From a virus: a DNA stretch of 64,000 bases. The notes beneath the pieces were generated by a model, which was not told where the DNA came from, ran no database searches, and worked only from the letters and a program-made list of their open reading frames with translations. Positions 35,032 to 59,393 of this stretch are shown here, in pieces. A program made the position numbers and the translations under genes. Numbering within the stretch: the stretch's first letter is position 1; the number at the start of each line of letters is the position of its first letter. The stretch covers positions 1-64,000 of the IMG/VR virus record IMGVR_UViG_3300032285_002814; one strand, given 5' to 3'.

Positions 35032-35266
35032 TTTCCAACGAGTTACATATATTTTAATTTTTGATATGTAAGTGATTGATCCTCAATTGCGTGCAACTCA
35101 TTCATTTCCAAACAACTACATATTAAGTTCAAAAATATATGTAAGTGATTGGTTCTCCCTGATATTTTTTTAAAAATAGTTGCTAAATAATTTTTTTGAT
35201 AAACTAGAATGGGGTACTTTTACATAAATGCCAAACGAGATTAGTCACTTTAAAAAAATATATAAT
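35032..35266 (+). promoter_or_regulatory. Early-type promoter region with repeated operator-like element (copy 1)
   Basis: A gene-free stretch. A 17-base element occurs in four alternating orientations: 35035-35051 (reverse), 35064-35084 (forward), 35108-35123 (reverse) and 35136-35152 (forward). The last one continues into TTGGTTCTCCCTG, an A/T tract with ATAGTTGCTAAAT, and a GTACTTTTAC box at 35214-35223. The same series precedes the genes at 39265, 42117 and 59394. The leader ends TAAAAAAATATATAATATG, shared with the gene at 42117. Confidence 0.7.
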
Positions 35267-35527
35267 ATGAGTAAAAAAACTGTAAAAGAATTGAAAACTT
35301 TAGTAGAATTACCTAAAGACGAGTACATCGCAATGATGAAAGAATTGAATCCTGATCTGACAGATGCAGATCTAGCTGATATGTTCCCTGACGGGTGGCA
35401 GGCCAAGCATATAGATATAAGCGGAAATAATTACGATAGCTTTAGAAAAACGCAGATCATGATTGACTCTCAATTAGAAGAGCAATTCTGTGGCGGTTAC
35501 GAATCAGACGAAGATTTCGATTATTAA
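35267..35527 (+). CDS. Small acidic protein behind an early-type promoter
   Basis: An 86-residue protein, unrecognised, beginning MSKKTVKELKTLVELPKDEY. The C-terminal half is acidic and ends ESDEDFDY. This start is chosen over an earlier in-frame ATG at 35228 because the leader TAAAAAAATATATAATATG is shared exactly with the gene at 42117, which also sits behind the same promoter element. The strong upstream element suggests high or early expression, as for small host-takeover proteins; that is inference. Confidence 0.55.
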   Translation: MSKKTVKELKTLVELPKDEYIAMMKELNPDLTDADLADMFPDGWQAKHIDISGNNYDSFRKTQIMIDSQLEEQFCGGYESDEDFDY

Positions 35528-35557
35528 TTAAATTATAAACCAATAAAACAAAATACT

Positions 35558-35992
35558 ATGTTAGCAATTGAAGACTTGTTAGGAAAAACTGAAGCTGAAG
35601 TAAAACAGCATATCGCAGACAATTATGCAGAAGAGCCTTATAATAAGGAATCAGCAAAAGTCGTATACAATCAACTTGATAAGTTAGACGTGCTTGTCGC
35701 GTACGAATCAGTTGGAAGTTGGGGTTGCGACTCTACTTCTTTCTTTGTATTCAAAGACAAAGAGACTGGTGAGTTATACGAAATGCATGGATCACACTGT
35801 TCGTGTTATGGCTTCGAAGGCCAATTCAAATTAGAAGAGACTGCAATCGAAGCACTTAAGTCTCGAGTAGAACACGCAAGAAGTTACAATCAAGAAGACG
35901 AAGACGAGCACGCCATATTCTCTATGGGTGGATACGATGGAGATTCTACAAACAATGCGAAAGCAGTTAACGAATATATTATTAATCTATAA
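35558..35992 (+). CDS. Phage protein of unknown function
   Basis: A 144-residue alpha/beta protein. A central VLVAYESVGSWGCDSTSFFVFKDKETGELYEMHGSHCSCYGFEGQF segment carries a dense set of Cys, His and Gly that could bind a metal (GC, HCSC) and looks conserved. I recognise this layout from other phages but know no function. The C terminus is acidic. Confidence 0.55.
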   Translation: MLAIEDLLGKTEAEVKQHIADNYAEEPYNKESAKVVYNQLDKLDVLVAYESVGSWGCDSTSFFVFKDKETGELYEMHGSHCSCYGFEGQFKLEETAIEALKSRVEHARSYNQEDEDEHAIFSMGGYDGDSTNNAKAVNEYIINL

Positions 35993-36008
35993 TCAAAAAA
36001 TAAAAGTT

Positions 36009-36314
36009 ATGAAAGCAACATTCAAATCAACAGGAGGAACGTCGTTCCATGATTCAGTAGTTAGTGAAACTTTAGCAAATTTAATATCTGTATTAGGCGA
36101 ACCAAATTACTCAGGTAATGATGGCGAAGACAAAGTCAATTTTGAGTGGGAAATGGAAACCGAAGATGGAACAGTATTTACAGTGTATGACTGGAAAGAA
36201 TATAGATCAATATCAGATCACGAAGTAATAGAGTGGCACATTGGCGGAAAAAGTAGATCTGACACTGAAAAAGCTAGACAAGAAATATTCAACGCATTAT
36301 TCAATAAAAAATAA
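36009..36314 (+). CDS. Small phage protein with VYDWKEYR motif
   Basis: About 101 residues starting MKATFKSTGGTSFHDS. The layout (a helix LANLISVLGEPN, then VNFEWEMETEDG, FTVYDWKEYR, and EWHIGGKS) matches a small protein often seen in large phage genomes, unassigned. The ATG is abutted by AATAAAAGTT, which decides it over the upstream in-frame ATG lying in the previous gene. Confidence 0.6.
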   Translation: MKATFKSTGGTSFHDSVVSETLANLISVLGEPNYSGNDGEDKVNFEWEMETEDGTVFTVYDWKEYRSISDHEVIEWHIGGKSRSDTEKARQEIFNALFNKK

Positions 36315-36319
36315 AAGTT

Positions 36320-36586
36320 TTGAACCACTATCAAATAACAGCATTCACAAATAAATTAAAAAAAGATAAAGATATGCTACACAAAACAAATCGTCAGATT
36401 CTGACAAAAGCAATCAAAGAATTGAGTGATATCGACTTGGTATTTTTTAGAGAGCGCATGCTCAGATCATGCGACGAAATTCTAAGTAATAGAGAGGAAA
36501 TAATTAAAGACATGGATGGAGGTTTCATATCTCCACATTTATTAATCGAGTGTATGGAGAACATAAAAGAAAAATTAGATTTCTAA
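36320..36586 (+). CDS. Small helical protein with a TTG start
   Basis: An 88-residue helical protein (NRQILTKAIKELSDIDLVFFRERMLRSC), unrecognised. The start is TTG, abutted by the same AAAATAAAAGTT sequence that precedes ATG starts elsewhere, a good sign that the leader rather than the codon marks initiation. Function unknown. Confidence 0.55.
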   Translation: MNHYQITAFTNKLKKDKDMLHKTNRQILTKAIKELSDIDLVFFRERMLRSCDEILSNREEIIKDMDGGFISPHLLIECMENIKEKLDF

Positions 36587-36646
36587 CACTTACACTTAAA
36601 ACTTAATATTGTCAAAATAATCAATTATATTTATAAAACAAAGGTT

Positions 36647-36922
36647 ATGAACAAAGAAAAAATACGTAGCACAGTTTATCCGAAAAAACAAATGTCGTAT
36701 ACGACGTGGTGCAAGAAATACAAAGTCGGTTCAAGAGTGCAAAAATATAGCAATAAGAACTTCTATAAAGAAGGAGAATACGATCACGATAAATTGATAA
36801 AAATAATAAAAAGTTATGGAAACGAAAAACAATCCCCTATTTGGAGACAAGTCTGCGAGGCACTTCTTGCATTATGTAAAGGGAAAATGCAGAAAGCATG
36901 GAATAAAATTAGTATTGCGTGA
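36647..36922 (+). CDS. Small basic protein overlapping the metalloprotein gene
   Basis: A 91-residue basic protein: MNKEKIRSTVYPKKQMSYTTWCKKYKVGSRVQKYSNKNFY, unrecognised. It is preceded by TATATTTATAA and an AAGGTT-ATG start. Its last 107 bases overlap the metalloprotein gene in another frame, an unusually long overlap here. The two may be separate genes, or the first may continue into the second by frameshift; the sequence does not decide. Confidence 0.45.
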   Translation: MNKEKIRSTVYPKKQMSYTTWCKKYKVGSRVQKYSNKNFYKEGEYDHDKLIKIIKSYGNEKQSPIWRQVCEALLALCKGKMQKAWNKISIA

Positions 36923-37436
36923 CACAACATATTTAAGACTTGATGGAAATATCAAGTGTTCTGGTTATTTTGACGATGAAGGCGGAAAGCTAGTAGTTGC
37001 AATGAAGTCTTCTCTCGCTTTAGAGATATTAGTACACGAATTTGGGCACTTAACTCAATACGTAGATAATTGCAAACCGTGGAGAAATTTAGGTAATAGT
37101 CTCGATAAGATGACGGATTGGTTACAGGGCAGAGACATTAGAAATAGTGACAAGTATATAAACGCAGCAAGAGATATGGAGCTTGACAACGAAAAAAGAT
37201 CTGTACAGATAATAAAAGATTTTGGTTTGAATATAGATATAGAATCTTACATACAGAGAGCAAACAGCTATGTATACTTTTACAACTGGATGAAGACCAC
37301 AAGACGCTGGTCATCAGCAAAAAATTCTCCTTATAAGAATCAAAGGCTATTAGAAGTTATGCCTAAAACATTCCAGAAGAGCTACAGAACAATACCTAAA
37401 CGCATAGCCAAAGTATTTAAAGAACAAAATATTTAA
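36816..37436 (+). CDS. HExxH zinc metalloprotein
   Basis: A 206-residue protein with VHEFGHLTQYV (about 72-82), the HExxH zinc and catalytic motif of zincin-type peptidases, preceded by a strand pair (CSGYFDDEGGKLVVAM). A third ligand could be the Glu or Asp of RDMELDNEKR. The C-terminal third is basic (TRRWSSAKNSPYKNQR). The ATG is abutted by AAAAAGTT. There is no signal peptide, so it acts in the host cytosol or virion. The next gene is also an HExxH protein. Confidence 0.7.
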   Translation: METKNNPLFGDKSARHFLHYVKGKCRKHGIKLVLRDTTYLRLDGNIKCSGYFDDEGGKLVVAMKSSLALEILVHEFGHLTQYVDNCKPWRNLGNSLDKMTDWLQGRDIRNSDKYINAARDMELDNEKRSVQIIKDFGLNIDIESYIQRANSYVYFYNWMKTTRRWSSAKNSPYKNQRLLEVMPKTFQKSYRTIPKRIAKVFKEQNI

Positions 37437-37437
37437 C

Positions 37438-37824
37438 ATGACAAAGTTAACAAGGTTTCATGCATTAAAAATATTAGATTGGTGTATGAAGAAATATGGT
37501 AGAGGTATTAAGCCTTATCCGACCCTTCAATTCAGAAAGCCTGATTATATGAACGGAGAGCATGCTTACGGAGAGTACGATTACGAAGACGACTTCATAT
37601 ATGTAAATAGTCAACTTCATAAAAATTTAGATGAACTTGCAGACACGATAATACACGAATACGTTCACTATAGGTATCATGCTAAGTCTACTTATTATCA
37701 ATTGGACAGAGACTACGATCATGACGATCATCCGATGGAGAAGCAAGCAGACGCAATAGCAAGAAGAGATCAAAAAAAATGTGTGCAAGAACTAAAAAAA
37801 TATTACAGACAATTCAATCATTAA
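37438..37824 (+). CDS. HExxH metalloprotein, SprT/minigluzincin-like
   Basis: A 128-residue protein with IIHEYVHYRYH (HExxH zinc site) and, about 30 residues later, DHPMEKQADAIARRD, whose Glu would be the third ligand in the gluzincin style. YEDDFIYVNSQLHKNLDELADT precedes the site as in small SprT-like or minigluzincin proteins. It directly follows another HExxH gene but differs in sequence and length, so the pair is probably not a recent duplication. Confidence 0.7.
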   Translation: MTKLTRFHALKILDWCMKKYGRGIKPYPTLQFRKPDYMNGEHAYGEYDYEDDFIYVNSQLHKNLDELADTIIHEYVHYRYHAKSTYYQLDRDYDHDDHPMEKQADAIARRDQKKCVQELKKYYRQFNH

Positions 37825-37849
37825 TTTATAAACATATTTATTGACAGGT

Positions 37850-38062
37850 ATGATAACTATTACAGCATTAGAAGCCATAGCAATCAAATCCATACCGGAA
37901 GGTAATCACTCATTATTGGGCGTGAATAGCAGAAAAGCTTGGGTGAAAATAGTTAAAGAGTACGTAACTACTCACAAACTAGAAATAACAACAAAGAACT
38001 TAAAAACTCTCGCAAATAATTGGGAGACCCTATTGATAACACACTATAGCGCATTGAACTAA
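37850..38062 (+). CDS. Small helical protein, function unknown
   Basis: A 70-residue protein, MITITALEAIAIKSIPEGNHS..., helical and slightly basic, unrecognised. A CATATTTATT box lies just upstream of the ATG; an in-frame TTG nine bases earlier is less likely because it falls next to that box. Separated by one base from the following membrane coiled-coil gene. Confidence 0.5.
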   Translation: MITITALEAIAIKSIPEGNHSLLGVNSRKAWVKIVKEYVTTHKLEITTKNLKTLANNWETLLITHYSALN

Positions 38063-38063
38063 C

Positions 38064-38378
38064 ATGACACTATTACAAATCTCAGGAATTAATCTATCAT
38101 CCGTAGCAACGCAGTACGGAATTTTAGGAATCTTAGCAGTACTGTTAGGTTACTTCGCATGGAGTACATATAACAAGATTTCTAAAAAGAACGACGAAGA
38201 TTATCAGAGACTAATAAAGAAAAACGAAGAGTTGGAAGAGGAAGTTGCAAATCTCAGAGAAGAGATGATGGCACTTATAGTAGAAGAGAGAAACAGAATG
38301 GCAGAATTAGTAAGAGCAAATACAGAAGCGCTAACAGATTTACGTAGAACAATAACAGATTACATGTTAAGAACATAG
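38064..38378 (+). CDS. Membrane-anchored coiled-coil protein, BhlA/UviB-like
   Basis: A 104-residue protein. One hydrophobic helix (YGILGILAVLLGYFAWSTY, about 18-36) is followed by a long charged coiled coil (KKNEELEEEVANLREEMMALIVEERNRMAEL). This layout resembles BhlA/UviB holin-like proteins but also plain membrane-anchored scaffolds. It sits far from the endolysin, so a lysis role is uncertain. Confidence 0.5.
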   Translation: MTLLQISGINLSSVATQYGILGILAVLLGYFAWSTYNKISKKNDEDYQRLIKKNEELEEEVANLREEMMALIVEERNRMAELVRANTEALTDLRRTITDYMLRT

Positions 38379-38380
38379 CT

Positions 38381-38668
38381 ATGAATAAAACAGCATCAAT
38401 GCTATCTAAGATGGCTGACAAATTACTAAAGTCAGCAGATAAAGCAGATGCTTACGCTCAGTCTCAAGCTAAATACAAAAAGATAAAGCTTCTACACGAA
38501 GCGATGACTGAAAGATATAAATTCTACATATCCAGTAAAGACAAATGTTCTTACGCAGATCAAATCAAGAGCGAGATCGAACAAGTCAAAAGACTAGAAA
38601 AGAGATTGACTCTAACTGATCAAGACGATTCAATCCTTGAAAGGCTGTTTAACAAATACAAAATTTAG
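38381..38668 (+). CDS. Helical coiled-coil protein
   Basis: A 95-residue, almost wholly helical and basic protein (MLSKMADKLLKSADKADAYAQ, then IKSEIEQVKRLEKRLTL), unrecognised. It begins two bases after the membrane coiled-coil gene and may pair with it. Function unknown. Confidence 0.5.
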   Translation: MNKTASMLSKMADKLLKSADKADAYAQSQAKYKKIKLLHEAMTERYKFYISSKDKCSYADQIKSEIEQVKRLEKRLTLTDQDDSILERLFNKYKI

Positions 38669-38698
38669 ATTAAATAACCCTCAAACCCCCCTTAGTTT

Positions 38699-39106
38699 AT
38701 GAAACAATTAATGTTGTGTCTTTTGGTGCTATTAGCATCATGCGCAAAACCGCTTATCGAAACTGAAATTAAAAAGGAAACTCTCTACTACCGAATCGAA
38801 GAACTAGACGAAGATGGAACAAAAACATACAGTCAAGTAGAAACAATCAAAATCAAAGTTGAATCGTGCGATGGAGAAGGCGATGATGACGATGACGATG
38901 ACGATCACACACTCGCTGTAACGTTTGTATCTTTTTCAGTTGTACTTGATAAAAGCAATCGACCACTTCTCAAGTGGCAAGTAGAAAACGAAATGCCAAC
39001 TAACATATATAATATACAAAGATCGATCGATGCCAAATCGTGGCAGAATATAACTATCGTGCATGCCTCAGGCGCCCCTATATATTCGTACATTGATAAT
39101 CAATAA
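38699..39106 (+). CDS. Lipoprotein with poly-Asp segment
   Basis: A 135-residue predicted lipoprotein: MKQLMLCLLVLLASCAKP gives a lipobox with Cys15. The mature part has a strand-rich N-terminal stretch, an eight-residue Asp run within GEGDDDDDDDDHT that could bind Ca2+, and a C-terminal domain (LLKWQVENEMP, YNIQRSIDAKSWQ) resembling fibronectin-type III strands seen in Bacteroidota surface proteins. A phage-borne lipoprotein of this size suggests a surface role during infection. The promoter region of the next gene follows. Confidence 0.65.
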   Translation: MKQLMLCLLVLLASCAKPLIETEIKKETLYYRIEELDEDGTKTYSQVETIKIKVESCDGEGDDDDDDDDHTLAVTFVSFSVVLDKSNRPLLKWQVENEMPTNIYNIQRSIDAKSWQNITIVHASGAPIYSYIDNQ

Positions 39107-39264
39107 GTTGTGATATTAAGAAAAAAAATATATGTAACTCGTTGGTTCTCCCTGAAGTATTTTTGAAAATAGTCGCTAAATTATTTTTTTATGTCGGTGG
39201 AACGCGGTACTTTTACCCTGTTATCGCCAATCAGGCATCAAATTATAAAAAAAAATAATAAGTT
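39107..39264 (+). promoter_or_regulatory. Early-type promoter region (copy 2)
   Basis: TATATGTAACTCGTTGG (from 39129) continues into TTCTCCCTGAAGTATTTTTGAAAATAGTCGCTAAA and a GTACTTTTAC box at 39208-39217, then a roughly 50-base leader to the ATG. The first 17 bases are the exact reverse complement of the element at 35035-35051. Confidence 0.7.
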
Positions 39265-40050
39265 ATGACGAAATTAAATTACAAAAATGCTGCTCAAGCT
39301 AAACGTGAAACTGGACTTTCTTACATCGGCGCTGTTAACTCAAGCGCTAAGATCTTAAAAAACGAAAAGTACAACGAACTTACTTACATTATCTATCTGG
39401 CACCCGCCAACCTGAGCGGATACGAAGTGTGTCCGATGCGTACAGACGAATGTACGAATGCGTGTTTATTTGGTAGCGGACAAGTTATTATGGATAAAAC
39501 GAATCGTATCGTTGAATCTCGTATCAAGAAGACGCAAATGTTTTTCACTGATCGCGAATACTTTATGTCGTGGGTAGTAAAAGAGATAGAGCAAGCAAAA
39601 GCAAAAGCTGCGAAGAAGGATATGAAATTCTCTGTACGTTTGAATGGCACCTCTGATCTCGAACCAACTCTGTTCAAATTAAATGGCAAAACGTTATTCG
39701 AAATATTTCCAGACGTACAGTTCTACGACTACACTAAAGTGCCTAAACGCTTTAGATTGTTGCAAACGTATAGTAACTACGATCTAACGTTCAGTTATTC
39801 TGGACATAATTGGTCTGCGTGCGAAGAGATATTAGATAACAAATCTGGTCGTGTGGCTGTTGTATTCGAAAAGAATTTACCTGAAACTTACAAAGGATAT
39901 AAAGTATTTGACGGCGATGCATACGATATGAGATACGTAGACGAACAAGGCGTGATAGTTGGTTTAAAGTTCAAACGCGTTAAGAATAAGGTAGAAAAGA
40001 CTAACAATGCCTTCATCGTTGCGATAGACGATATCAACAGAAATAAATAA
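39265..40050 (+). CDS. GP88-family phage protein
   Basis: A 261-residue protein with the GP88 (PF17338-type) pattern: NLSGYEVCPMRTDECTNACLFGSGQ with spaced cysteines (about 50-74), ESRIKKTQMFFTDREYFMSW, then VRLNGTSDLEP and an FYDYTKVPKR segment. The family is widespread in phages and has no established function. Arginine is mostly encoded by CGT here, unlike in most of the window, and the gene stands behind a strong conserved promoter element. Both suggest high expression. Confidence 0.82.
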   Translation: MTKLNYKNAAQAKRETGLSYIGAVNSSAKILKNEKYNELTYIIYLAPANLSGYEVCPMRTDECTNACLFGSGQVIMDKTNRIVESRIKKTQMFFTDREYFMSWVVKEIEQAKAKAAKKDMKFSVRLNGTSDLEPTLFKLNGKTLFEIFPDVQFYDYTKVPKRFRLLQTYSNYDLTFSYSGHNWSACEEILDNKSGRVAVVFEKNLPETYKGYKVFDGDAYDMRYVDEQGVIVGLKFKRVKNKVEKTNNAFIVAIDDINRNK

Positions 40051-40113
40051 GCACTTATTGGTTCTTAAAAATGTAAAATTAAAACACTATTAGTAACTTA
40101 AAAAATTATAGAT

Positions 40114-40623
40114 ATGACTCCAAGACAGTTCAACGAATTACAAAGACAAGCAGACGTAATCGAAACGCACACAAAAAACATGGAAGTGAACAAAGCTGTA
40201 GAGCTGTTCGTAGAAACACTAGCACTGAAGTACACGGATATAGACGAACAGTCTGACAAGTGGCACGATCTTTATTCCAAAGAATGCCAGCTGTTTGGAA
40301 TTATGAGTAAGTTTGACAAATCTCAATCAGTTGAATACAAAAAGCGCATCGCTAAAGAATCATTCAAATGGAAGATAAAACAAGTGACTGGCTTTTTCAT
40401 GTTGGGAGATAATCACAATTTCAACGACGAAGGACATGGATACTTAGATACTCACGTCGAGTGGGGTGGAATGCAAGTTGAAGTTATAATATATAGAAAA
40501 GCAGAAAGAGAAACGGAATTTTTTGTAGACATGTATGGTCACAACAATACAAGTAGAGAAGCTAGATTACAAAAAGAGAGAGACTTAGAAAAACAATTTT
40601 ATAATTACATTTCAAATCAGTAA
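40114..40623 (+). CDS. Phage protein of unknown function
   Basis: A 169-residue protein, unrecognised. A helical N-terminal half (FNELQRQADVIETHTKNMEVNKAVELFVETLALKY) is followed by a strand-rich part (GYLDTHVEWGGMQVEVIIYRKAERETEFFVDMYG) and a charged terminal helix. Function unknown. Confidence 0.55.
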   Translation: MTPRQFNELQRQADVIETHTKNMEVNKAVELFVETLALKYTDIDEQSDKWHDLYSKECQLFGIMSKFDKSQSVEYKKRIAKESFKWKIKQVTGFFMLGDNHNFNDEGHGYLDTHVEWGGMQVEVIIYRKAERETEFFVDMYGHNNTSREARLQKERDLEKQFYNYISNQ

Positions 40624-40641
40624 ATTTAAAAAATAAAAGTT

Positions 40642-40842
40642 ATGACATTCAAATTTTTCGTACAAACAAAAAGAGTTGATTCCATATTTGTGGAATTACC
40701 AGGAAAATCTCGAATCATAGAACAAGATGACGAGTGGACTACAGTAGAAATAACAATCAATAACGATATAGATGCGTTAAGTTTATTCCACGCAGGTTGC
40801 AGAGCTGGAATGAACGAAGTACTTAATCAAATAAAACTATAA
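40642..40842 (+). CDS. Small beta-rich protein
   Basis: A 66-residue protein (FKFFVQTKRVDSIFVELPGKS, then WTTVEITINNDIDALSLFHAG), unrecognised. Its ATG is abutted by AAAATAAAAGTT. Similar spacing on both sides suggests one polycistronic run of small genes. Confidence 0.5.
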   Translation: MTFKFFVQTKRVDSIFVELPGKSRIIEQDDEWTTVEITINNDIDALSLFHAGCRAGMNEVLNQIKL

Positions 40843-40855
40843 AAAAATAAAAGTT

Positions 40856-41026
40856 ATGAAATTTCAAGAAAAAGGCAGCACAGCCAAAAAACACTTTCAA
40901 ATCAGTTTAACAAAATCGTTCATTAGACTTATTGCATGTTTGTGCTTAGGATATAAAGACTTCGTTGGATCTGCTGTACTATTAGCCTTCGCTGAGGTAT
41001 TGGGAATCTACGAAGAGATCGCTTAA
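40856..41026 (+). CDS. Small hydrophobic protein
   Basis: A 56-residue open frame, MKFQEKGSTAKKHFQISL..., with a hydrophobic stretch (IRLIACLCLGY and VGSAVLLAFAEVLGIY) and no clear signal cleavage site. The start carries the full AAAATAAAAGTT leader, which supports translation. Function unknown. Confidence 0.5.
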   Translation: MKFQEKGSTAKKHFQISLTKSFIRLIACLCLGYKDFVGSAVLLAFAEVLGIYEEIA

Positions 41027-41052
41027 CAAAACAAAAAACCAAAAATAAAGTT

Positions 41053-41265
41053 ATGAATCAAGAAAAAATTGACACACCAACACTTATCGTTATCATGTTT
41101 CTTATGATGGCACTTATTAACGGATTGATGGGATGCAGAGGTACAAAGATAGCCAGTACTCCTACTAAAAGACAGATTAAAAAATCCATGAGACACTCTA
41201 CGTGGGAATATGAAATGCCTAAAACATCAATTATGTATGATAGTTATAGAGTAGCTAATTACTAA
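41053..41265 (+). CDS. Small membrane protein or lipoprotein
   Basis: A 70-residue protein. The hydrophobic segment TLIVIMFLMMALINGLMGCRG ends in a lipobox-like LMGC, so it could be a lipoprotein (Cys28) or a single-pass membrane protein. The remainder is basic (KRQIKKSMRHS). The ATG is abutted by AAAGTT. Function unknown. Confidence 0.5.
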   Translation: MNQEKIDTPTLIVIMFLMMALINGLMGCRGTKIASTPTKRQIKKSMRHSTWEYEMPKTSIMYDSYRVANY

Positions 41266-41363
41266 AAAGAAAAAACTTTTCGCACTGAAAAATTATACTT
41301 TCGTCAGTCAAAAGAGTTTCATATATTTACTATATAACAATAAAACAAAACAAAAAACACGTT
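41266..41363 (+). promoter_or_regulatory. Promoter region sharing the downstream half of the early-type element
   Basis: TATATTTACTATATAACAATAA (from 41322) is identical over 22 bases to the sequence at 59331, the initiation end of promoter copy 4. The upstream TTGGTTCTCCCTG part is missing here. It drives the small DNA-binding-like gene. Confidence 0.6.
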
Positions 41364-41660
41364 ATGAGCAAAAACAAAACGCAAAGCACATCTTCAAAGA
41401 GTGCACCAGTTGCAAAGAGCAACCGTCCATCAACTTACACTAAGTTGACTTACATTCAGAAAGTAAGCCGTATCAATCGCAAATTGCGCACAGGCGACAT
41501 TAGCAAAGTTGCTAGCGAAATGGGCTACTCAAACACCCACGTTTCTGATGTAGTTAGTGGAAAGTACTTCAACGACACTATCGTTAATCGTATCTACGAT
41601 CTAACACGTAATCGTGTATCTAACGCGGTTAAGTTGTCTAAGATGAGCAGCAACGCCTAA
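41364..41660 (+). CDS. Small helix-turn-helix-like protein
   Basis: A 98-residue basic protein. A disordered Ser/Thr/Lys-rich N terminus (MSKNKTQSTSSKSAPVAKSN) is followed by KVSRINRKLRTGDISKVASEMGYSNTHVSDVVSGKYFNDTIVN, which reads as a helix-turn-helix of the Cro/phage-repressor type (helix, GYSNTHVSDVVSG recognition helix). Codons are CGT/CGC-rich. Behind a promoter of the early type and before a terminator, it is transcribed as a single gene, so it is a good candidate for a transcription regulator. Confidence 0.6.
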   Translation: MSKNKTQSTSSKSAPVAKSNRPSTYTKLTYIQKVSRINRKLRTGDISKVASEMGYSNTHVSDVVSGKYFNDTIVNRIYDLTRNRVSNAVKLSKMSSNA

Positions 41661-41677
41661 TTAACTTCTCTGTATCA

Positions 41678-41768
41678 TGAGGCATTCTTAAGCCTCACAG
41701 ATTGTTACCCTCAAGATCAATTATCTATTTACTTGTCTAAGTTGAATATTTAATTGATCTTTTTTTTA
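41678..41768 (+). terminator. Terminator after the HTH-like gene
   Basis: AAGATCAATTA (41713-41723) pairs with TAATTGATCTT (41751-41761), followed by a T run. A separate hairpin TGAGGC..GCCTCA (41678-41697) lies just upstream. Confidence 0.75.
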
Positions 41769-41980
41769 TATATGATATTTCACTTGATAATTAATTCTAA
41801 TATGAGCAATATATACGTATACGTGTGGCAATACAAAGCAAACTCTGAGCTCACCCCGTGCTCACCATTTAGCCAAAAGGGGGCCTACCAATAGGCTAAC
41901 ATAGGGCCCCACCCCAATACCTGCCCCAAGGGGCCTATCACAACAAATTGGTTACCAAAAAGATAAGCATTCACTGGAAA
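41769..41980. other. Gene-free GC-rich structured segment
   Basis: About 210 bases without a gene. After 50 AT-rich bases there is an unusually GC-rich patch (41840-41940): GAGCTCACC and GTGCTCACC direct repeats, GCCTACCAATAGGC (perfect 5-bp hairpin), GGGCCCC and CCCCAAGGGG inverted repeats, and GGGGCCTA twice. It contrasts sharply with the surrounding AT-rich sequence and could be a small RNA, a protein-binding site or an origin-like element. Confidence 0.5.
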
Positions 41981-42116
41981 TATATGTGTAAAGCGTTGGT
42001 TCTCCCTGAAGTATTTTTGAAAATAGTTGCTAAATTATTTTTTAGTGTCAAAAAGTCGTCGTACATTTACTCTATTAACGGCAACAGACAGCCTAATCAT
42101 TAAAAAAATATATAAT
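41981..42116 (+). promoter_or_regulatory. Early-type promoter region (copy 3)
   Basis: TATATGTGTAAAGCGTTGG followed by TTCTCCCTGAAGTATTTTTGAAAATAGTTGCTAAATTA and a GTACATTTAC box at 42061-42070. The leader ends in TAAAAAAATATATAATATG, as at 35267. Confidence 0.7.
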
Positions 42117-42473
42117 ATGAACAAGACAATCACTTACAACGACGCAATCTGGAACACTTCATCTCAAGAGCAAACAGTTTATTTGCCTAAATCGGCTACA
42201 AAGCTTACTGAAAAAGCTTCTAGCGGTACACGTGTAGAATACGTTGACTTCTTCGGTAAGAAGCAAATTATTCCATGTAAGACTAATAAAGCTTTGAAAG
42301 AAGCTATGCAATTCTTATCAATGCTGAAACGTGAGTCGGCTACTATCAATCAGATCTGCGCTCAGTACAACGTTAAGATGGGTAAATTCCAAAACGTTAA
42401 CAAACTTAAGCAAGAGCTTAGAGCGTTAGGACTTACTGCAGGTGCAGTTAATCGTTTAGCTGTTATCAAGTAA
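42117..42473 (+). CDS. Small protein behind an early-type promoter, HTH-like C terminus
   Basis: About 118 residues beginning MNKTITYNDAIWNTSSQEQT. The C-terminal half (SATINQICAQYNVKMGKFQNVNKLKQELRALGLTAGAVNRLAVIK) is helical and could form a DNA-binding fold, but no family is recognised. This ATG is used because the shared TAAAAAAATATATAATATG leader ends there; the frame is open 30 codons further upstream, but that part lies within the promoter. Confidence 0.55.
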   Translation: MNKTITYNDAIWNTSSQEQTVYLPKSATKLTEKASSGTRVEYVDFFGKKQIIPCKTNKALKEAMQFLSMLKRESATINQICAQYNVKMGKFQNVNKLKQELRALGLTAGAVNRLAVIK

Positions 42474-42532
42474 TATCAGCATCCACTTCAATTCTAATCA
42501 AATCATTATAAAAATATAAAACAATTAAAGTT

Positions 42533-42961
42533 ATGAAAAAAGTATCAATTATCAATTCAGAAAGAATCAGTCAAGTAGAATTTATCAACGATCGTAAAGG
42601 CGAATACAGAGCAATCGTAAAAGTGCAAGCGGGCTTTATGACGGTTGTAGACGATATAGGTATTCAAAACAAATGGGGTAGACAACAGTGGAATTCAGCT
42701 ATCGACGTATTTCGTGGCTTTAAGAAAGGCGCTTTACAAACTATAGAATTCAAAGCAGAAGGATCAGATACGTGGTTGACTGTATTCGCTAAAGCAGGTA
42801 ACAAAGTTAAATTGATGGACTATCAGTTGTTTAAAGATATGGAAGTTGGTGACATCAATCAGAATTGGTCGAGCACTAATTTGTATAGCCAAAATAATTA
42901 CGCATTGTGTAACGCAAAAACATGGGCTGATAAGGCATTCGTTGCAAACAAATCTAAATAA
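42533..42961 (+). CDS. Phage protein of unknown function
   Basis: A 142-residue strand-rich protein (RISQVEFINDRKGEYRAIVKVQAGFMTVVDDIG, then LQTIEFKAEGSDTWLTVFAKAGNKVKLMDYQLF), unrecognised. The ATG is abutted by AAAGTT, and it uses some CGT arginine codons, like other genes near the early-type promoters. Confidence 0.5.
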   Translation: MKKVSIINSERISQVEFINDRKGEYRAIVKVQAGFMTVVDDIGIQNKWGRQQWNSAIDVFRGFKKGALQTIEFKAEGSDTWLTVFAKAGNKVKLMDYQLFKDMEVGDINQNWSSTNLYSQNNYALCNAKTWADKAFVANKSK

Positions 42962-50469: not shown

Positions 50470-50471
50470 TC

Positions 50472-50992: not shown

Positions 50993-51019
50993 TATAAACA
51001 TATTTATAATAAAATTTAC
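50993..51019 (+). promoter_or_regulatory. ATATTTATA promoter-like box before the LamG genes
   Basis: CATATTTATAATAAAATTTAC fills the short gap before the first LamG gene; ATATTTATA is the candidate late promoter box. Confidence 0.4.
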
Positions 51020-53494: not shown

Positions 53495-53508
53495 TAAAAA
53501 TAAAAGTT

Positions 53509-54402
53509 ATGGGAAAAATAGGTTATGCATGTATAAACATGACTCTAGGTAAAACAGCTACCACAAACAGAGGCATGACAATGAAAACGTTCAAAGCAAA
53601 AGGACTTCCTTACGTATCGGAATTGGCACTCAAGAACGCTCAAGACGTTATCAAGATCCTTAAGTGGAACGAAGCACACAATATTAAAATGTTTAGATTG
53701 TCCTCAGCTCTCATACCATGGGGCAACTCTATAAACATAGACGAATTACCTGATATTATAGCAATCACTGCCGCTCTTAAAGAAGCAGGAGATTACGCAG
53801 CACAACACGGACACAGGATAACTACCCATCCCGGTCCATACACAGTTATTGCATCTCCTAATCACACAGTAGTAGAAAATGCTATAAAAGATTTAGAAAT
53901 GCACGCTAAAGTATTTGATCTCATGGGTCTAAGCAAGACTCCGTACAACAAGATCAACATACACGTTAACACAACTGCAGGAGGTAAACAAGCCGCTATG
54001 AAAAGATTCTGCGATGCATATTGGTTCCTATCAGAATCAGTTAGAAGCAGATTGGTAGTAGAGAACGATGATAAGCCTAAGCAATACACAGTAGAAGATC
54101 TGATGTACGTACACAAGCTTATAGGCATTCCAGTTACTTTCGATTACTTTCACCACTCGTTGAATCCAGGTAATCAGACAGAAGAAGAAGCTCTAAAGTT
54201 GGCGGCTACTACTTGGCCTGAAGGTATCACTCAAGCAGTACACTATAGCGAAAGCAAAAGAACACACGAGAACAATCCTAAAGAAAATGCTAGAGCGCAC
54301 AGCGATTATATAAATGCATTGCCTAATATTTATGATCTGGATATAGACATAATGACGGAATGTAAAATGAAAGAGTTAGCTATATTACCGTTAATAAAAT
54401 AA
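53509..54402 (+). CDS. UV damage endonuclease (UvsE/UVDE-like)
   Basis: A 297-residue TIM-barrel nuclease. GKIGYACINMTLG at the start, FRLSSALIPWGNS (about 64-76), HRITTHPGPYTVI, INIHVNTTAGGK, LVVENDD and FDYFHHSLNPG form the metal-binding set of UVDE enzymes, which nick 5' of UV photoproducts and other lesions. Length is typical. It would repair UV damage in phage DNA during infection, suggesting life in sunlit water. Start carries the AAAATAAAAGTT leader. Confidence 0.9.
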   Translation: MGKIGYACINMTLGKTATTNRGMTMKTFKAKGLPYVSELALKNAQDVIKILKWNEAHNIKMFRLSSALIPWGNSINIDELPDIIAITAALKEAGDYAAQHGHRITTHPGPYTVIASPNHTVVENAIKDLEMHAKVFDLMGLSKTPYNKINIHVNTTAGGKQAAMKRFCDAYWFLSESVRSRLVVENDDKPKQYTVEDLMYVHKLIGIPVTFDYFHHSLNPGNQTEEEALKLAATTWPEGITQAVHYSESKRTHENNPKENARAHSDYINALPNIYDLDIDIMTECKMKELAILPLIK

Positions 54403-54405
54403 TTT

Positions 54406-54537: not shown

Positions 54538-54543
54538 AAAACA

Positions 54544-54804: not shown

Positions 54805-54824
54805 AAAAATAATCCTAATCAGTT

Positions 54825-55094
54825 ATGAAAAGAACAGAAAGAACGGACTACCATTGGGATATCCAATACATGGACATAGATCCAGATTCAGGAGATGCTT
54901 CAGATCCCAAAACTGTAGCGACTACGAAGTGGCCTACATACGCTAACGTAATACTAGATGCGTTCATCAAACAAGACGAAAACCCTAACAGACACTACTT
55001 CATAGTCAAGTGCGTGAACCACGCCATAAAAGAGGCGTACATAAAAGGACACGAAGACAGAGAAAAAGATATATTCAATTTAGGACAATTTTAA
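54825..55094 (+). CDS. Small phage protein of unknown function
   Basis: An 89-residue hydrophilic protein (DYHWDIQYMDIDPDSGDASDPKTV, then FIVKCVNHAIKEAYIKGHEDREK). The C terminus with an A-Y-x-x-G-x-E-D-x-x-K pattern recurs in small phage proteins; unassigned. Start abutted by TCAGTT. Confidence 0.45.
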   Translation: MKRTERTDYHWDIQYMDIDPDSGDASDPKTVATTKWPTYANVILDAFIKQDENPNRHYFIVKCVNHAIKEAYIKGHEDREKDIFNLGQF

Positions 55095-55103
55095 ATAGAA
55101 GTT

Positions 55104-55568
55104 ATGAATTTTGGAACAAATGGATGCATGTATAACTGTGGTGACAGCTGTACAGGAGAGTGTATAGAACCCACGACGTATAACGAACAACAAGATTATC
55201 CAGAACTAGAAGGCACAAATGAACTGTGCAAAGATATTATTGCGACGCGCGCGAACGAAAGTGTCCCGGCCCCAGACGAACTCCAAGAGGAGTTGCGCCG
55301 TGTCCGAAGTGCAAAGAACAGCCACGTCAAGTCACAGAAGTGGGAGATAGCCGCACTCTACAGAGAGATAGAGAAGTTGTTGCAAGCGGAAGAGCCTACC
55401 TGTTCCAACTGTCAAATGCTGTTAAGCGCCATCGGAGTGGGACAGGGGTTGATCTGCGACTTGAATAAGTGTCGCATACCGCACAGCAAGCACAGTTGCC
55501 AATACCACTTCAAGACTGTGACGCAAAGCGCAGAGCTTGCAAGTTTTGATAAAACATTAAACGTATAA
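55104..55568 (+). CDS. Cys-rich protein with UVR-like helix pair
   Basis: A 154-residue protein. The N terminus is cysteine-rich (CMYNCGDSCTGEC), followed by ELQEELRRVRSAKNSHVKSQKWEIAALYREIEKLL, which has the AlaAla-x-Arg-Glu helical-hairpin pattern of UvrB/UvrC motifs, and a further zinc-type cluster (TCSNCQML ... CDLNKC ... HSCQYH). GC content rises markedly inside this gene relative to those upstream. Function unknown; protein-protein contact through the UVR-like part is likely. Confidence 0.55.
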   Translation: MNFGTNGCMYNCGDSCTGECIEPTTYNEQQDYPELEGTNELCKDIIATRANESVPAPDELQEELRRVRSAKNSHVKSQKWEIAALYREIEKLLQAEEPTCSNCQMLLSAIGVGQGLICDLNKCRIPHSKHSCQYHFKTVTQSAELASFDKTLNV

Positions 55569-55569
55569 T

Positions 55570-55911
55570 ATGACGGTAAAACAAGTAACACTCGCAAAGA
55601 CAGAGTACGATGCAATGGAAACCGAATTGAAGGATTTGAGAGCAATAGTCTCAAGCAGAACCATACTCCAAATAGTAGAAGAAGACTTTGGTTGGCACAG
55701 GGCTCGCATTGCTGCAAGCGGTACCAGAATCAAATACATATTGGGAACCGACAGCGATGAGGGCAAAATGAAAGTATTATCGGACTATATCGGGGACTTA
55801 TACAAGAAGATAGCAAAGATGGAAGCAGACTCGTGCAGAAAGTCAGACGAGATCAGCCGCTTGAAGGCGCAGAAGTGGTACCAAAAACTATTCAGCAGAC
55901 AAAACAAATAA
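55570..55911 (+). CDS. Coiled-coil protein of unknown function
   Basis: A 113-residue protein, nearly all helical: a coiled coil at LAKTEYDAMETELKDLRAIVS and another near SDYIGDLYKKIAKMEADSC, with a conserved-looking EDFGWHRARIAAS in between. Basic tail. Unrecognised. Confidence 0.5.
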   Translation: MTVKQVTLAKTEYDAMETELKDLRAIVSSRTILQIVEEDFGWHRARIAASGTRIKYILGTDSDEGKMKVLSDYIGDLYKKIAKMEADSCRKSDEISRLKAQKWYQKLFSRQNK

Positions 55912-55912
55912 C

Positions 55913-56053
55913 ATGAATAAAGAACAAGTAAAAGACCAGCTAATCGAAATCTTAGAAAACCAAGTAGTAGACTTGACAACGATGTCCAAGATTGAACTTG
56001 GCGACGATGTGATCGCAGAGATCAAAAGACTTAAAGCCGTTATCAATGAATAG
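55913..56053 (+). CDS. Small helical protein
   Basis: A 46-residue open frame (MNKEQVKDQLIEILENQVVD..., ending KRLKAVINE), helical and acidic. It starts two bases after the preceding stop and overlaps the next start by eight bases, so it fits the operon. Function unknown. Confidence 0.4.
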   Translation: MNKEQVKDQLIEILENQVVDLTTMSKIELGDDVIAEIKRLKAVINE

Positions 56054-56546
56054 AGAACAACAACAGATCATTGATGAGGTGTACGAGAACTATTGGAATA
56101 GTCACCCTGATGCAGAGAAGACATTTCAATATGAAGGACATAATATTGAAACAAGAAGAATGACCAAGGATGAGTTTATTGATATGGTTAAAACTGATAA
56201 AGAGTATGCTAGAAGGTGGGGATTAAAGATTGAGGAAAGGGAGTTGAGTTTAGAAGAGAGATGTCATTTAGGATATAACTATGTAGATGGGTTTGAATGG
56301 GATATGTTAATGGGTGGTGGTAAAGAAGGCGATGAAGGTAATTGTAATGACTATAAAATCCCAACCAAACTAATCACAATAACTAGAGAGTTAAGTTTGG
56401 ATGAGAGAGTTGAATACCACTGTTCTCAGAATTGGGTTTTAGAGCATTTGAAAGATTCGCTAAGAAAACAAACCCCGGAACAAAAAACTTCATTTTTATC
56501 TGTTGCCAATATCCCAACCAACAAAACAATAGAGAGTTATGAGTAA
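56046..56546 (+). CDS. Phage protein with internal repeat
   Basis: A 166-residue hydrophilic protein. Two similar blocks are visible: RELSLEERCHLGYNYVDGF (about 66-84) and RELSLDERVEYHCSQNWV (about 113-130), so the domain appears duplicated. The centre is Gly-rich (MLMGGGKEGDEG). Codon use (more GGT, fewer CGN) differs from the GC-rich genes on either side, suggesting separate acquisition. Function unknown. Confidence 0.5.
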   Translation: MNREQQQIIDEVYENYWNSHPDAEKTFQYEGHNIETRRMTKDEFIDMVKTDKEYARRWGLKIEERELSLEERCHLGYNYVDGFEWDMLMGGGKEGDEGNCNDYKIPTKLITITRELSLDERVEYHCSQNWVLEHLKDSLRKQTPEQKTSFLSVANIPTNKTIESYE

Positions 56547-56733
56547 CCTAGAAGCAATCGCAAAAAGATATTGGGAAATCTACAACTCTTTTGATGGACA
56601 AACCAATTCAATTGATTTGGAAATGAAGACAATTTATATGCTAGCAGAAGAACTATCCCACAGCGGCGATATAGATAGCATGCCAAACATATTAACCTCT
56701 ATATATTTTTTAGGAAAAATCAATCAACAATAG
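56539..56733 (+). CDS. Small protein of unknown function
   Basis: A 64-residue protein (MSNLEAIAKRYWEIYNSFDG, then MKTIYMLAEELSHSGDIDSM), helical, unrecognised. It overlaps the previous gene by eight bases. Confidence 0.45.
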   Translation: MSNLEAIAKRYWEIYNSFDGQTNSIDLEMKTIYMLAEELSHSGDIDSMPNILTSIYFLGKINQQ

Positions 56734-56739
56734 AAAGTT

Positions 56740-56922
56740 ATGGACAACTACCAAAGCAATAACGTAATAATGCAGTTAGAGAACATAGCTCAACTGTTAA
56801 AGACGCAGAACGAATTGATACAGAAATTGCTACAGCCACAACAGGACGAAAAGACGCAGAGAAGAAAAGCACTGCAAGAACTACTAAGAAATGCAGAGGC
56901 AGACAAGAACACACAGGGATAA
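56740..56922 (+). CDS. Small helical protein
   Basis: A 60-residue helical protein (VIMQLENIAQLLKTQNELIQKLL) with a basic tail. Start abutted by AAAGTT. The candidate late box GCATATTTATAGG follows before the next gene. Confidence 0.45.
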   Translation: MDNYQSNNVIMQLENIAQLLKTQNELIQKLLQPQQDEKTQRRKALQELLRNAEADKNTQG

Positions 56923-56937
56923 CGCATATTTATAGGT

Positions 56938-58338
56938 ATGATAAAACTAAAAGACTTGCTCGTAGAGCTGCAGATACTAGAATCGGGAATAAGAAACATC
57001 AGAGCGCTTGCAAAAGCCAACAACAAGGCAGACATGTACTTTCACATGGACTTGGACGGAGTGACCAGCGCCATAGGCATGAAAGCCTATTTGAAGCAGT
57101 ACGGCGTAGCCGTTGTCAAAGCCGAACACATACAGTACGGAGGCAGAGAGTACTCGGCTCCAAAGCCCACACCGGGCCACATGGTCGTGCTAGTTGACTT
57201 CGCTCACGGCAAGCCAAACGTTACCATACACACCGACCACCACGAAGCGCAGAGCGGAGTGGAGACAGGAACGGCAACCAACTTCAAGAAGAAACCGTCC
57301 AACCTTCAAACCATCTCTCAAGAGATCTCGCCGAAGGACATATTTCCCAACGAAGACGTGCAGATCATTTCTACCGTGGACTCCGCGGACTTCGCTAGTC
57401 AAAACATAGACGTGGATCAGGTGATAGCCACGGCTTTCAACTATTCCAAAGATCGCAGCGTGCAAAAGAACCGGATGGCGATGGGATTGGTGGCCAACAA
57501 GATCATACTCGCGTTCAAGAACAAGCCAAGGTTTCTAGAGAACATAGTGATGCAAGCAGAACCTTCTTTGGTTAGCATCTACAACGTGGCTATGAAGAAC
57601 GCCAAAGCAGCGGGTTTGAAACCCGAAGATCTGGCAGCTGCTCAAGACTCGTACGTGAAATCTCAGAGCGAAGCGGACAAGAAGGTGACTCTATCGAGTA
57701 CAACAGACATAGCCAACATGCACAACGGACAGTACGGCATGATAGGAACAGTATTGGTGCAGTACGGATTGGGATCGATGAAGGGAGGAGGCTACGACAG
57801 GTATGTGCCGTTCAAGATGAATCCAACCGCAGAGTACATGATACTTGGCTATCCGATGGGACTGATACAAGCCGCAAAGAACCCGTTCAAGAGAGGAAAG
57901 AATCCCTTCAACTTGGGCGACATAGCAAAGAAGATACTGCAGAAGTACGAGCCTCAGCTACAACAAAAGCAGTTGACGTTCAGATACATAAAGAAGACAA
58001 TGGAATCGGACGTGAAAACACCAGAAGCATTTGGCTTTACAACGAAAGATCTGATCGCCCTGTTCGGAGACGCAGCCAAAGGCATGCCAACAGCCGACAA
58101 GAGACAAGCTCTAGACGCCATAGCAAACAGACACTACGCAGATCTGTCTCAAGAAGAGAAGAGCCAACTAGAGAACGTAACCGTATCGGCATACGATCTG
58201 ATAACCAAACAATCGGGCGGACACAGAGACATAACCAACATATCGGGACTAAACTTCTTGGGAGAAGACGCGGCGGAATTCACCAAACAAATAATGCAGG
58301 ACCTTGCAGAGGAATTAAAGACCGCAAAGTTGCAATAG
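56938..58338 (+). CDS. DHH-family phosphoesterase with N-terminal MIKLKDLL tag
   Basis: A 466-residue protein. YFHMDLDGVTSAI (about 34-46) is DHH motif I, VVLVDFAHG follows, and HTDHHEAQSG near 100 is the DHH motif proper, so the metal site of DHH phosphoesterases (RecJ, NrnA or GdpP type) is present. The C-terminal half (GGGYDRYVPFKMNP, GGHRDITNISGLNF) may be the substrate-binding DHHA1-like part. Likely activities are exonuclease, oligo-RNA or cyclic-dinucleotide hydrolysis. The first residues match those of the GNAT protein at 48768. The gene is much richer in GC than the rest of the window. Confidence 0.75.
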   Translation: MIKLKDLLVELQILESGIRNIRALAKANNKADMYFHMDLDGVTSAIGMKAYLKQYGVAVVKAEHIQYGGREYSAPKPTPGHMVVLVDFAHGKPNVTIHTDHHEAQSGVETGTATNFKKKPSNLQTISQEISPKDIFPNEDVQIISTVDSADFASQNIDVDQVIATAFNYSKDRSVQKNRMAMGLVANKIILAFKNKPRFLENIVMQAEPSLVSIYNVAMKNAKAAGLKPEDLAAAQDSYVKSQSEADKKVTLSSTTDIANMHNGQYGMIGTVLVQYGLGSMKGGGYDRYVPFKMNPTAEYMILGYPMGLIQAAKNPFKRGKNPFNLGDIAKKILQKYEPQLQQKQLTFRYIKKTMESDVKTPEAFGFTTKDLIALFGDAAKGMPTADKRQALDAIANRHYADLSQEEKSQLENVTVSAYDLITKQSGGHRDITNISGLNFLGEDAAEFTKQIMQDLAEELKTAKLQ

Positions 58339-58422
58339 CTACAAACACAAAAAGGATAATATAATTAGCAATAGCTGCAGAAAGCATAACAAAAGTATAT
58401 TATAATAATCCAGATATAACAC

Positions 58423-58656
58423 ATGACACCTCAAGAGAAAGCAAGACAGCTGGTAGAGAGATTCTACTTTGCTTTACCAAACAACGGATCGGAAACTGGA
58501 GTATGTAACGTACACCAAAGGTGGGAAGAGGGAAAGAAGTGCGCCACCATAGCGGCACGCTTTCTCAAAGAACAATACATAGAGATGTTTACCATAAAGG
58601 GACCCGCAAAGCCAAATTACTGGGACGAAGTCAAAACAGAAATAGAAAAGATATGA
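58423..58656 (+). CDS. Small phage protein, MTPxEKAxxLV family
   Basis: A 77-residue protein (MTPQEKARQLVERFYFALPN, then KKCATIAARFLKEQY and YWDEVKTEIEKI). The gene at 63179 is a clear paralogue with the same start (MTPKEKAKELV) and end (YWKEVKQEIENL). Such proteins are common in Bacteroidota phages; function unknown. Stop and next start overlap (ATGA). Confidence 0.6.
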   Translation: MTPQEKARQLVERFYFALPNNGSETGVCNVHQRWEEGKKCATIAARFLKEQYIEMFTIKGPAKPNYWDEVKTEIEKI

Positions 58657-58814
58657 AAATAGAATGGCAAAACAGATGGACCGCAAGAGGGTTCAACCTG
58701 ATAGAGATAAACCTAATGAAGATAGGCACCGACAAAACGGGATACAGATGGACGCTGTTCGTCTACCTGCTAAACTTCGGATTCATTTACAAAACACGAG
58801 TACGCAAGGCATGA
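58653..58814 (+). CDS. Small basic protein
   Basis: A 53-residue protein (MKIEWQNRWTARGFNLIEINLMKIGTD..., ending FIYKTRVRKA), unrecognised. ATGA coupling to both the preceding and following genes supports translation from 58653. Confidence 0.5.
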   Translation: MKIEWQNRWTARGFNLIEINLMKIGTDKTGYRWTLFVYLLNFGFIYKTRVRKA

Positions 58815-59056
58815 TACTGATAGAAGTCAACAACAAACTGGCGAAGAGCAACTTCCAACTGATAGCGAGAACCCAAAACTGGGTAGAGAGCAACATGCCC
58901 GAGATCGGAAACGATTACGTGATAGTGATGAACCCGCACATCGAAGGAGATTTGAAGATAAGCCATCACGATCATGACGAATCGACCAACGCCCCACTTG
59001 GAACGAAACAGTCAAATGCCAATACTGATAGCGATAACATCATCTGCCGTAGCTAG
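58811..59056 (+). CDS. Small protein of unknown function
   Basis: An 81-residue protein starting MILIEVNNKLAKSNFQLIAR with NDYVIVMNPHIEGDLKIS. It begins by ATGA overlap with the previous gene. The C terminus is low-complexity (HHDHDESTNA). Unrecognised. Confidence 0.45.
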   Translation: MILIEVNNKLAKSNFQLIARTQNWVESNMPEIGNDYVIVMNPHIEGDLKISHHDHDESTNAPLGTKQSNANTDSDNIICRS

Positions 59057-59393
59057 CTTGCTGCCATTACCGGATCTGCCCGGCGTCTCGCCATTCTGCA
59101 CCCCGCACAAATGGACAGATTTTATCTCTGTATTTATAATAACTACAATCAAACGGATCACACAGCGCCCATCAGCTCCTAAACAGCACGGTCCACATGC
59201 ATAAAAAACATAATATGCAACCTATTGGAAGCTGTCAGCCACAATCCAAGCCTGTCCCTAACTGCTTGGTTCTCAACCGAGAATTTTTAAAATAGTTGCT
59301 AAAATATTTTTTAGTGTGAAAATGTTGTCGTATATTTACTATATAACAATAACACAGCTGCTAAACCAGCTCCAAATCTAAAAAAATAATAAT
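59057..59393 (+). promoter_or_regulatory. Gene-poor stretch with early-type promoter (copy 4)
   Basis: No convincing gene; a 76-codon frame from 58974 runs into it but overlaps the previous gene by 83 bases and lacks a leader. From 59262 the sequence CTTGGTTCTCAACCGAGAA, then ATAGTTGCTAAAATATTTTTTAGTGT and a TATATTTACTATATAACAATAA box (59331-59352) match the other early-type copies. The leader ends in AAAAAAATAATAATATG. Confidence 0.65.

Follow-up and report, generated by a model that had tools for sequence, protein, structure and literature searches.

A long composite sequence recurs in front of several unlike genes in a stretch of phage DNA, and the question raised by this locus is whether the sequence is a promoter and, if so, which polymerase reads it and with what assistance. 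The DNA belongs to the virus record IMGVR_UViG_3300032285_002814, which has 65,515 bases and of which the first 64,000 constitute the stretch analysed here (the window); no end repeats were found in the 65,515-base record and the contig is probably a fragment. Judged from its sequence, the repeated element is very likely a promoter of the Bacteroidota host type, and it is probably best explained as a composite promoter, in which a core of the sigma-ABfr type is joined to an upstream module of palindromes and by which scattered transcription units would be regulated together. The known part, as we read it, is the sigma-ABfr-type promoter and the new part is the upstream block with its palindromes; versions of the element as a whole recur in otherwise very different phages of the Bacteroidota.

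The initial annotation had placed the element before the genes starting at 35267, 39265, 42117 and 59394, and this was borne out. When up to 3 mismatches are allowed, the 23-mer TGAAAATAGTTGCTAAATTATTT has exactly four sites in the window, all on the plus strand (35171, 39164, 42018 and 59287), and at no site in any of 100 dinucleotide shuffles. The proposed search of the rest of the genome, made by blastn of the whole record with the copy at 41960-42120, returned the same four copies only, the other three with E values of 1e-17 to 1e-25. The downstream half had been said to precede the gene at 41364 as well, and a repeat search, in which the family of full copies also came up, does pair a partial element at 41307-41347 with 59316-59356 (83%). 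Two parts of the earlier description need amendment. The copy before 59394 departs from the sequence given for the element, in that the TATATGTAAC stretch is missing and TTCTCCCTGAAG is replaced by TTCTCAACCGAGAA; and the described extent is right as far as it goes but falls short upstream, where palindromic sites at 35070-35117, 39087-39109 and 41942-41964 also belong to the element. These overlooked palindromic sites are probably its regulatory half. The copies and their parts are as follows.

35133-35270, plus strand: full element copy before gene 35267, with the -7 box TACTTTTAC at 35215-35223 and a predicted transcript start near 35227.
35070-35092 (AAGTGATTGATCCTCAATTGCGT) and 35095-35117 (AACTCATTCATTTCCAAACAACT), plus strand: two extra palindromic sites of the 35267 copy, inverted repeats with 3 mismatches each to AACNNNTTGRNNNYCAANNNGTT.
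35143-35165, plus strand: promoter-proximal palindromic site of the 35267 copy, left half intact.
39087-39109, plus strand: upstream palindromic site of the 39265 copy, CGTACATTGATAATCAATAAGTT.
39124-39260, plus strand: full element copy before gene 39265, with a proximal half-palindrome at 39136-39158, the -7 box TACTTTTAC at 39208-39216 and a predicted start near 39220.
41322-41330, plus strand: -7 box TATATTTAC of the partial element before gene 41364, without a palindromic site upstream; predicted start near 41334.
41942-41964, plus strand: upstream palindromic site of the 42117 copy, AACAAATTGGTTACCAAAAAGAT, 1 mismatch.
41960-42120, plus strand: full element copy before gene 42117, with a proximal half-palindrome at 41990-42012 and the AT block at 42013-42043.
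42062-42070, plus strand: -7 box TACATTTAC of the 42117 copy; predicted start near 42074.
59260-59344, plus strand: element copy before gene 59394, with a proximal palindrome AACTGCTTGGTTCTCAACCGAGA at 59260-59282, the -7 box TATATTTAC at 59331-59339 and a predicted start near 59343.

Read toward the gene, the order of parts is one to three palindromic sites, an AT block TTTTgAAAATAGTTGCtAAA, a run of T residues, a variable spacer, the box TAnnTTTAC, a leader of 40-50 bases, an A-rich stretch and the ATG. The AT block TTTTgAAAATAGTTGC lies at about -60 to -44; the T-run (about -33) ends 16-20 bases before the -7 box, for a spacer of about 17; and the -7 box reads TAnnTTTAC in all 43 of the copies tallied. 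Transcript starts were predicted by counting 12 bases on from the first T of the -7 box, as in Flavobacterium johnsoniae (PMC6847099); they fall 40-51 bases before the start codon, the elements always pointing to the downstream gene.

The primary promoters of sigma-ABfr in the Bacteroidota (-33 TTTG, -7 TAnnTTTG; PMC6847099), for which the -7 consensus in F. johnsoniae is TAHHTTTG (PMC6847099), agree with the boxes of the window at T-12, A-11, T-8, T-7 and T-6, and they are also alike in their spacing to a T-rich -33 region, in a leader of about 30-50 bases and in the A-rich sequence before the ATG. Copies of the window type differ from them in having A for the nearly invariant G at -5 (43 of 43), in reading TTTT where the -33 TTTG would stand about 19 bases before the -7 box, and in the addition of the long conserved upstream block with its palindromes. 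Because the -33 motif of F. johnsoniae is itself weak (PMC6847099), the TTTT lowers the case for membership in the sigma-ABfr class without excluding it. Among distant relatives, the same GP88 gene is found behind a plain Bacteroidota promoter that has no upper half; the version in locus L064, ATTTGGTGATGTCAAAATAAGTCCGTAACTTTGC, aligns with ATTTTTTAGTGTCAAAAAGTCGTCGTACATTTAC of the window, and the lower half of the element thus appears to be a sigma-ABfr-type promoter with degraded boxes. The promoter had been called strong; the departures from consensus at -33 (TTTT) and -7 (A at -5) suggest that it may need help from upstream. Promoters of the E. coli sigma-70 type (TTGACA-N17-TATAAT) have only chance-level matches in 34900-42600 and none within the elements in the plus direction, and no late promoter of the T4 type (with a TATAAATA-like -10 and a gp55-type sigma) was found in the elements, which carry TAnnTTTAC.

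Selection appears to have held this arrangement in place. In close relatives (L043-L048, with GP88 proteins 85-97% identical) copies lie before the same genes, and in the 42117 and 39265 groups the upstream core has a mean pairwise identity of 87-89% and the -7 box one of 89-97%, compared with 71-72% for third codon positions, 38-64% for DNA far upstream and 57-86% for the spacer (57% in the GP88 group). Since the core and -7 box exceed both the third codon positions and the far upstream DNA, the element seems to have been kept by purifying selection and not to reflect a recent duplication. The 42117 protein has relatives at 15 viral loci, which form two clades, 39-47% identical between clades, and in both clades the element stands directly before every gene of the family with usable upstream DNA (L209 and L214, cut too close to the gene, were left out of this count).

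What speaks most strongly for the core being a promoter, and one shared by more than a single phage lineage, is in our reading its recurrence in the Chryseobacterium indologenes phages MA9V-1 (OR050627, 213 kb) and MA9V-2 (OR513085, 219 kb), each of which has many copies of it. Thirteen intergenic repeats of MA9V-1, and no other sequences, were made into a profile; it finds the window copies at 42010 (E 4e-10), 59284 (E 3e-7) and 39155 (E 4e-5), and at E<1e-3 it has 37 matches in MA9V-1 and 36 in MA9V-2, all on the plus strand. Within the first 100 kb of MA9V-1, where intergenic DNA makes up 9.6%, all 16 core matches are intergenic (P 5e-17); a -7 box was recognised in 15 of the 16, and 13 of these 15 boxes lie 28-42 bases before an annotated start. 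The repeats of the two phages have in common with the window the core GAAAATAGTTGC ... ATTTT ... ATGTC ... TAnATTTG/A at the same spacing. They differ in their lack of palindromes above chance, in their number (about 36 copies per genome) and in that many carry the exact host -7 box TATATTTG, with G at -5. The papers describing MA9V-1 and MA9V-2 do not call these intergenic repeats promoters and mention no promoter. In another contig of 256 kb (L263), nine core matches of the MA9V type occur in 12 kb beside a relative of the helix-turn-helix (HTH) protein encoded at 41364, without the palindrome, and this contig is a natural contrast case for separating the core from the palindromes.

Recognition by the host (or a host-like) RNA polymerase, much as proposed earlier, finds good support in all of these comparisons, namely in the -7 box and its spacing, the single-strand intergenic placement, the purifying selection and the independent recurrence in Chryseobacterium phages. 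Recognition by a phage-encoded or phage-modified polymerase, with a sigma factor of its own, would account for the A at -5 and the T-run at -33, and all 43 tallied copies do read TTTAC and not TTTG. MA9V-1 and MA9V-2 encode a sigma-like protein (PF04542, E 6e-12), and a close relative, G002, has a weak match to sigma-70 region 2 (E 9e-5; 69488-69658, minus strand, in an open reading frame (ORF) of 253 amino acids). We nevertheless regard this explanation as quite improbable: no sigma domain was found in the window record, itself probably a fragment; the exact host box is frequent in the MA9V copies; and the G002 match comes without region 4 and may belong to a late sigma, as a second motif described below precedes other genes. 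Far less probable again is that the element is no promoter but a palindromic repeat that serves in replication or packaging or is mobile, or else a structured RNA. Palindromes of 25 bp are indeed common in Bacteroidota virus contigs, also at the borders of transfer RNA (tRNA) genes and before repL of crAssphage, but the invariable orientation of the elements toward the gene, the narrow range of predicted leaders, a -7 box that is conserved where the spacer varies, and the one-strand bias in MA9V all speak for a promoter. An Rfam covariance search of the window at gathering thresholds gave no match, and no tRNA genes were found in the window.

The palindromic sites could be seen only after relatives had been aligned. 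Their consensus is AAC-N3-TTGR-N3-YCAA-N3-GTT, often in tandem; it is nearly perfect in L014, L210-L216 and other phages (for example TAACTGATTGGTTATCAATCACTTG), and the promoter-proximal sites of the window keep mainly the left half (AAGTGATTGG, AACTCGTTGG, AAAGCGTTGG and AACTGCTTGG). In 31 of 31 copies, drawn from several phage contigs, the TTGR half-site ends 61 or 62 bp before the -7 box, so that the site is centred near -72; additional palindromes lie further upstream, commonly with a spacing of 25 or 44-48 bp. (Long inverted arms in individual copies were also put to a shuffle test, which was weak and gave way to the palindrome analysis.) At 52 viral loci that encode relatives of the 41364 protein there are 115 palindromes with up to 2 mismatches, where 9.7 were expected, and 47 of the 52 loci have them; in these HTH-encoding contigs, palindrome centres fall 50-52, 59-61, 85-87 and 108-109 bp from a TAnnTTTAC box (46 cases versus 0-2 in shuffled sequence). 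A wider set consists of 79 loci found by the palindrome alone, among the matches listed. Here 44 of 45 distinct palindromes are intergenic, in DNA of which 78% lies in ORFs of at least 80 amino acids, and the palindrome precedes a host-type -7 box in 89 cases, compared with 5-7 in shuffles. The palindrome looks like a general feature of intergenic DNA in Bacteroidota phages that is often tied to promoters; the palindromes are likely to be regulator sites, and we consider it fairly probable that they function in the regulation of this promoter.

The 25-bp palindrome TAACTNATTGATNATCAATNAGTTA, or a looser form of it, is intergenic in many Bacteroidota phages (L269-L347; crAssphage, L388; Prevotella phage Lak-A1, L389), the crAssphage example (L388) being a less perfect, similar palindrome upstream of repL. 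A related palindrome, AAGTCGTTGAAAATCAACGACTT, occurs in L077, L083, L084 and L090 as pairs about 58 bp apart that flank hairpins of the GACCCC type, up to 28 times in 15 kb; these contigs have TTGACA-like promoters and are therefore probably phages of other bacteria.

It might be argued that the element is simply a constitutive early host promoter, with the AT block as an UP-like element for the alpha C-terminal domain and palindromes that are incidental or serve some other purpose. The core does stand without palindromes some 36 times in each MA9V phage, and the palindrome-free partial element before 41364 is kept in several relatives. We think this possible but rather unlikely, given the fixed distance of 61 or 62 bp in 31 of 31 copies, the conservation of the palindrome half-site between clades and the tandem palindromes at 25 or 44-48 bp.

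In the composite promoter that we prefer, the lower half, with its T-run at about -33, a spacer of about 17 bases and the -7 box TAnnTTTAC, would be read by the primary sigma type of the Bacteroidota. The upper half would consist of the AT-rich block TTTTgAAAATAGTTGC and between one and three palindromes (the closest with its centre near -72), to which a dimeric DNA-binding protein might bind; bound at a nearly fixed upstream position, this protein could help or control polymerase at the off-consensus promoter, and the element would co-regulate several scattered non-structural transcription units of a Bacteroidota phage. Sequence comparison supports the anatomy of the promoter, its conservation, its geometry and its recurrence; the binding of a protein, activation as opposed to repression, and early or middle timing are what we infer beyond these.

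Two well-studied systems offer analogies. At class I activator-dependent promoters, sites of the CRP type are centred at -61.5, -71.5 and so on, and at the MotA-dependent middle promoters of T4, MotA takes the place of the -35 itself. The element would resemble both in a palindromic site at a nearly fixed upstream distance, in its off-consensus boxes and in serving several phage units. The class I trait of a fixed distance is found in the 61/62 bp of the 31 copies and in the centres at 50-52 and 59-61 bp of the HTH set; the element differs from the MotA promoters in that its palindrome lies about 40 bp further upstream than the -35, and the activator is here only a candidate. The site near -72 and the off-consensus boxes lead us to favour an activator over a repressor, with activation a plausible role that falls a little short of probable. 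As repressor operators, the palindromes would shut the promoters at a later stage of infection, or during lysogeny or pseudolysogeny; palindromic operators with HTH proteins of the XRE or LacI type are classic repressor systems, and the 42117 element directly follows the HTH gene 41364. Such a role seems unlikely, however, since centres at about -72 and beyond are clear of the -33 and -7 boxes, so that simple occlusion is not to be expected, and two core boxes that are both off the host consensus are a better fit to activation.

Candidates for the binding protein would be the neighbouring HTH protein 41364 or a protein of the host. The HTH protein is 68-80% conserved within and between the two clades and its gene adjoins 42117 in both; as its own promoter this gene has the palindrome-free partial element that is kept in several relatives. 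The palindrome excess and the discrete distances in HTH-encoding loci suggest it as the binder. Its predicted structure (pLDDT 71) gives weak Foldseek matches, with E of 0.99 or worse, LacI and XRE proteins among them, and VIA-align Z scores of up to 5.6, the highest for AMPK domains, which are unrelated; Aca, XRE and lambda-repressor-like proteins score Z 3.5-4.8. No match to the protein was found in MA9V-1 or in Flavobacterium phage immuto. As the specific binder the protein was set aside, its gene being present in only 2 of the 79 palindrome-found loci in the stretches examined; with 77 of the 79 lacking it there, the claim was lowered to that of a candidate, and we regard the identification as doubtful.

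Several observations weigh against the composite reading. The palindrome is found in many phage contigs that have no HTH gene of the 41364 type in the stretch examined, and sometimes away from promoters, as at tRNA gene borders (L288 and L345). In the wider set the distances between palindrome and box are most frequent at about 56 and at 67-68, not at 60, so that no one register holds for all. In the MA9V phages the core comes without any excess of palindromes over chance, which makes the two halves separable; and the MA9V-1 core profile has no match in Flavobacterium phage immuto, the closest named relative of some window genes. Palindromes are not in excess in the MA9V stretches tested (5 versus 3.7 expected) or in immuto (2 versus 2.3). 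A strict 10.5-bp phasing between palindrome and -7 box was also tried and rejected, the Rayleigh test giving higher scores at 9.5, 11.5 and 12 and the wider set peaking at 56 and 67-68.

The genes downstream of the element and of its partial form are these.

35267-35527, plus strand: acidic protein of 86 amino acids, no family, after an element copy.
39265-40050, plus strand: GP88 (PF17338) protein of 261 amino acids, after an element copy.
41364-41660, plus strand: HTH protein of 98 amino acids, conserved in both element-carrying phage clades; candidate regulator.
42117-42473, plus strand: protein of 118 amino acids with no assigned fold, with the element directly in front in every family member with usable upstream DNA.
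59394-59693, plus strand: protein of 99 amino acids, no family, after an element copy.

They had been described as always small and unlike; unlike they are, but the 39265 product has 261 amino acids where the others have 86-118. The predicted structure of the 42117 protein (mean pLDDT 67) gave no usable fold match.

An early role for the element is plausible, as the genes that it serves are non-structural and a different, late-looking motif precedes other genes. This second motif, ATATTTATA(ATAAA), stands 10-40 bases before many start codons (in the window at 8967, 33242, 36627, 51000 and 56926), and in immuto (MW353175) ATATTTATA has a strand bias of 16 versus 1. The occurrence at 51000 precedes the virion-structural gene 51020. 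The motif is probably a late promoter class, and as such it would lend indirect support to an early or middle role of the element. Elsewhere in the window, a large block of glycosyltransferase and aminotransferase genes at 9212-31201, of which the 9212 gene is 58% identical to one in immuto, is probably a surface-glycan or virion-glycosylation cluster, and a UV damage endonuclease UvdE (PF03851, E 4e-64) is encoded at 53509-54402.

Beyond phages, an exact-pattern scan of the genomes of 85,000 species gave only one chance-looking match, in Coxiella, and plasmid searches gave nothing convincing; nor did searches of the literature, on the motif itself and on promoters in Flavobacterium or crAss-like phages, turn up a description of it. 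The control of transcription in phages of the Bacteroidota is largely uncharted, and the promoters used by the polymerase of their hosts differ from those of E. coli. A promoter class of fixed architecture that a profile can recognise across phage groups may help to mark out transcription units, and genes of the early or middle type, in dark phage genomes; the defined DNA site would be a handle for finding its binding protein, and the promoters are possible expression parts for bacteria for which few are known. We put forward, tentatively, that unrelated groups of Bacteroidota phages might share a regulatory code, in which a palindrome of 23-25 bp (TAACTNATTGATNATCAATNAGTTA), single or repeated in tandem and standing at set distances before a host-type promoter, would be bound by one dimeric factor, either a small phage HTH protein of the 41364 family that switches on middle genes or a host protein exploited by many phages. 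If true, this would be, within the literature searched, the first activator-type promoter class described for phages of the Bacteroidota.

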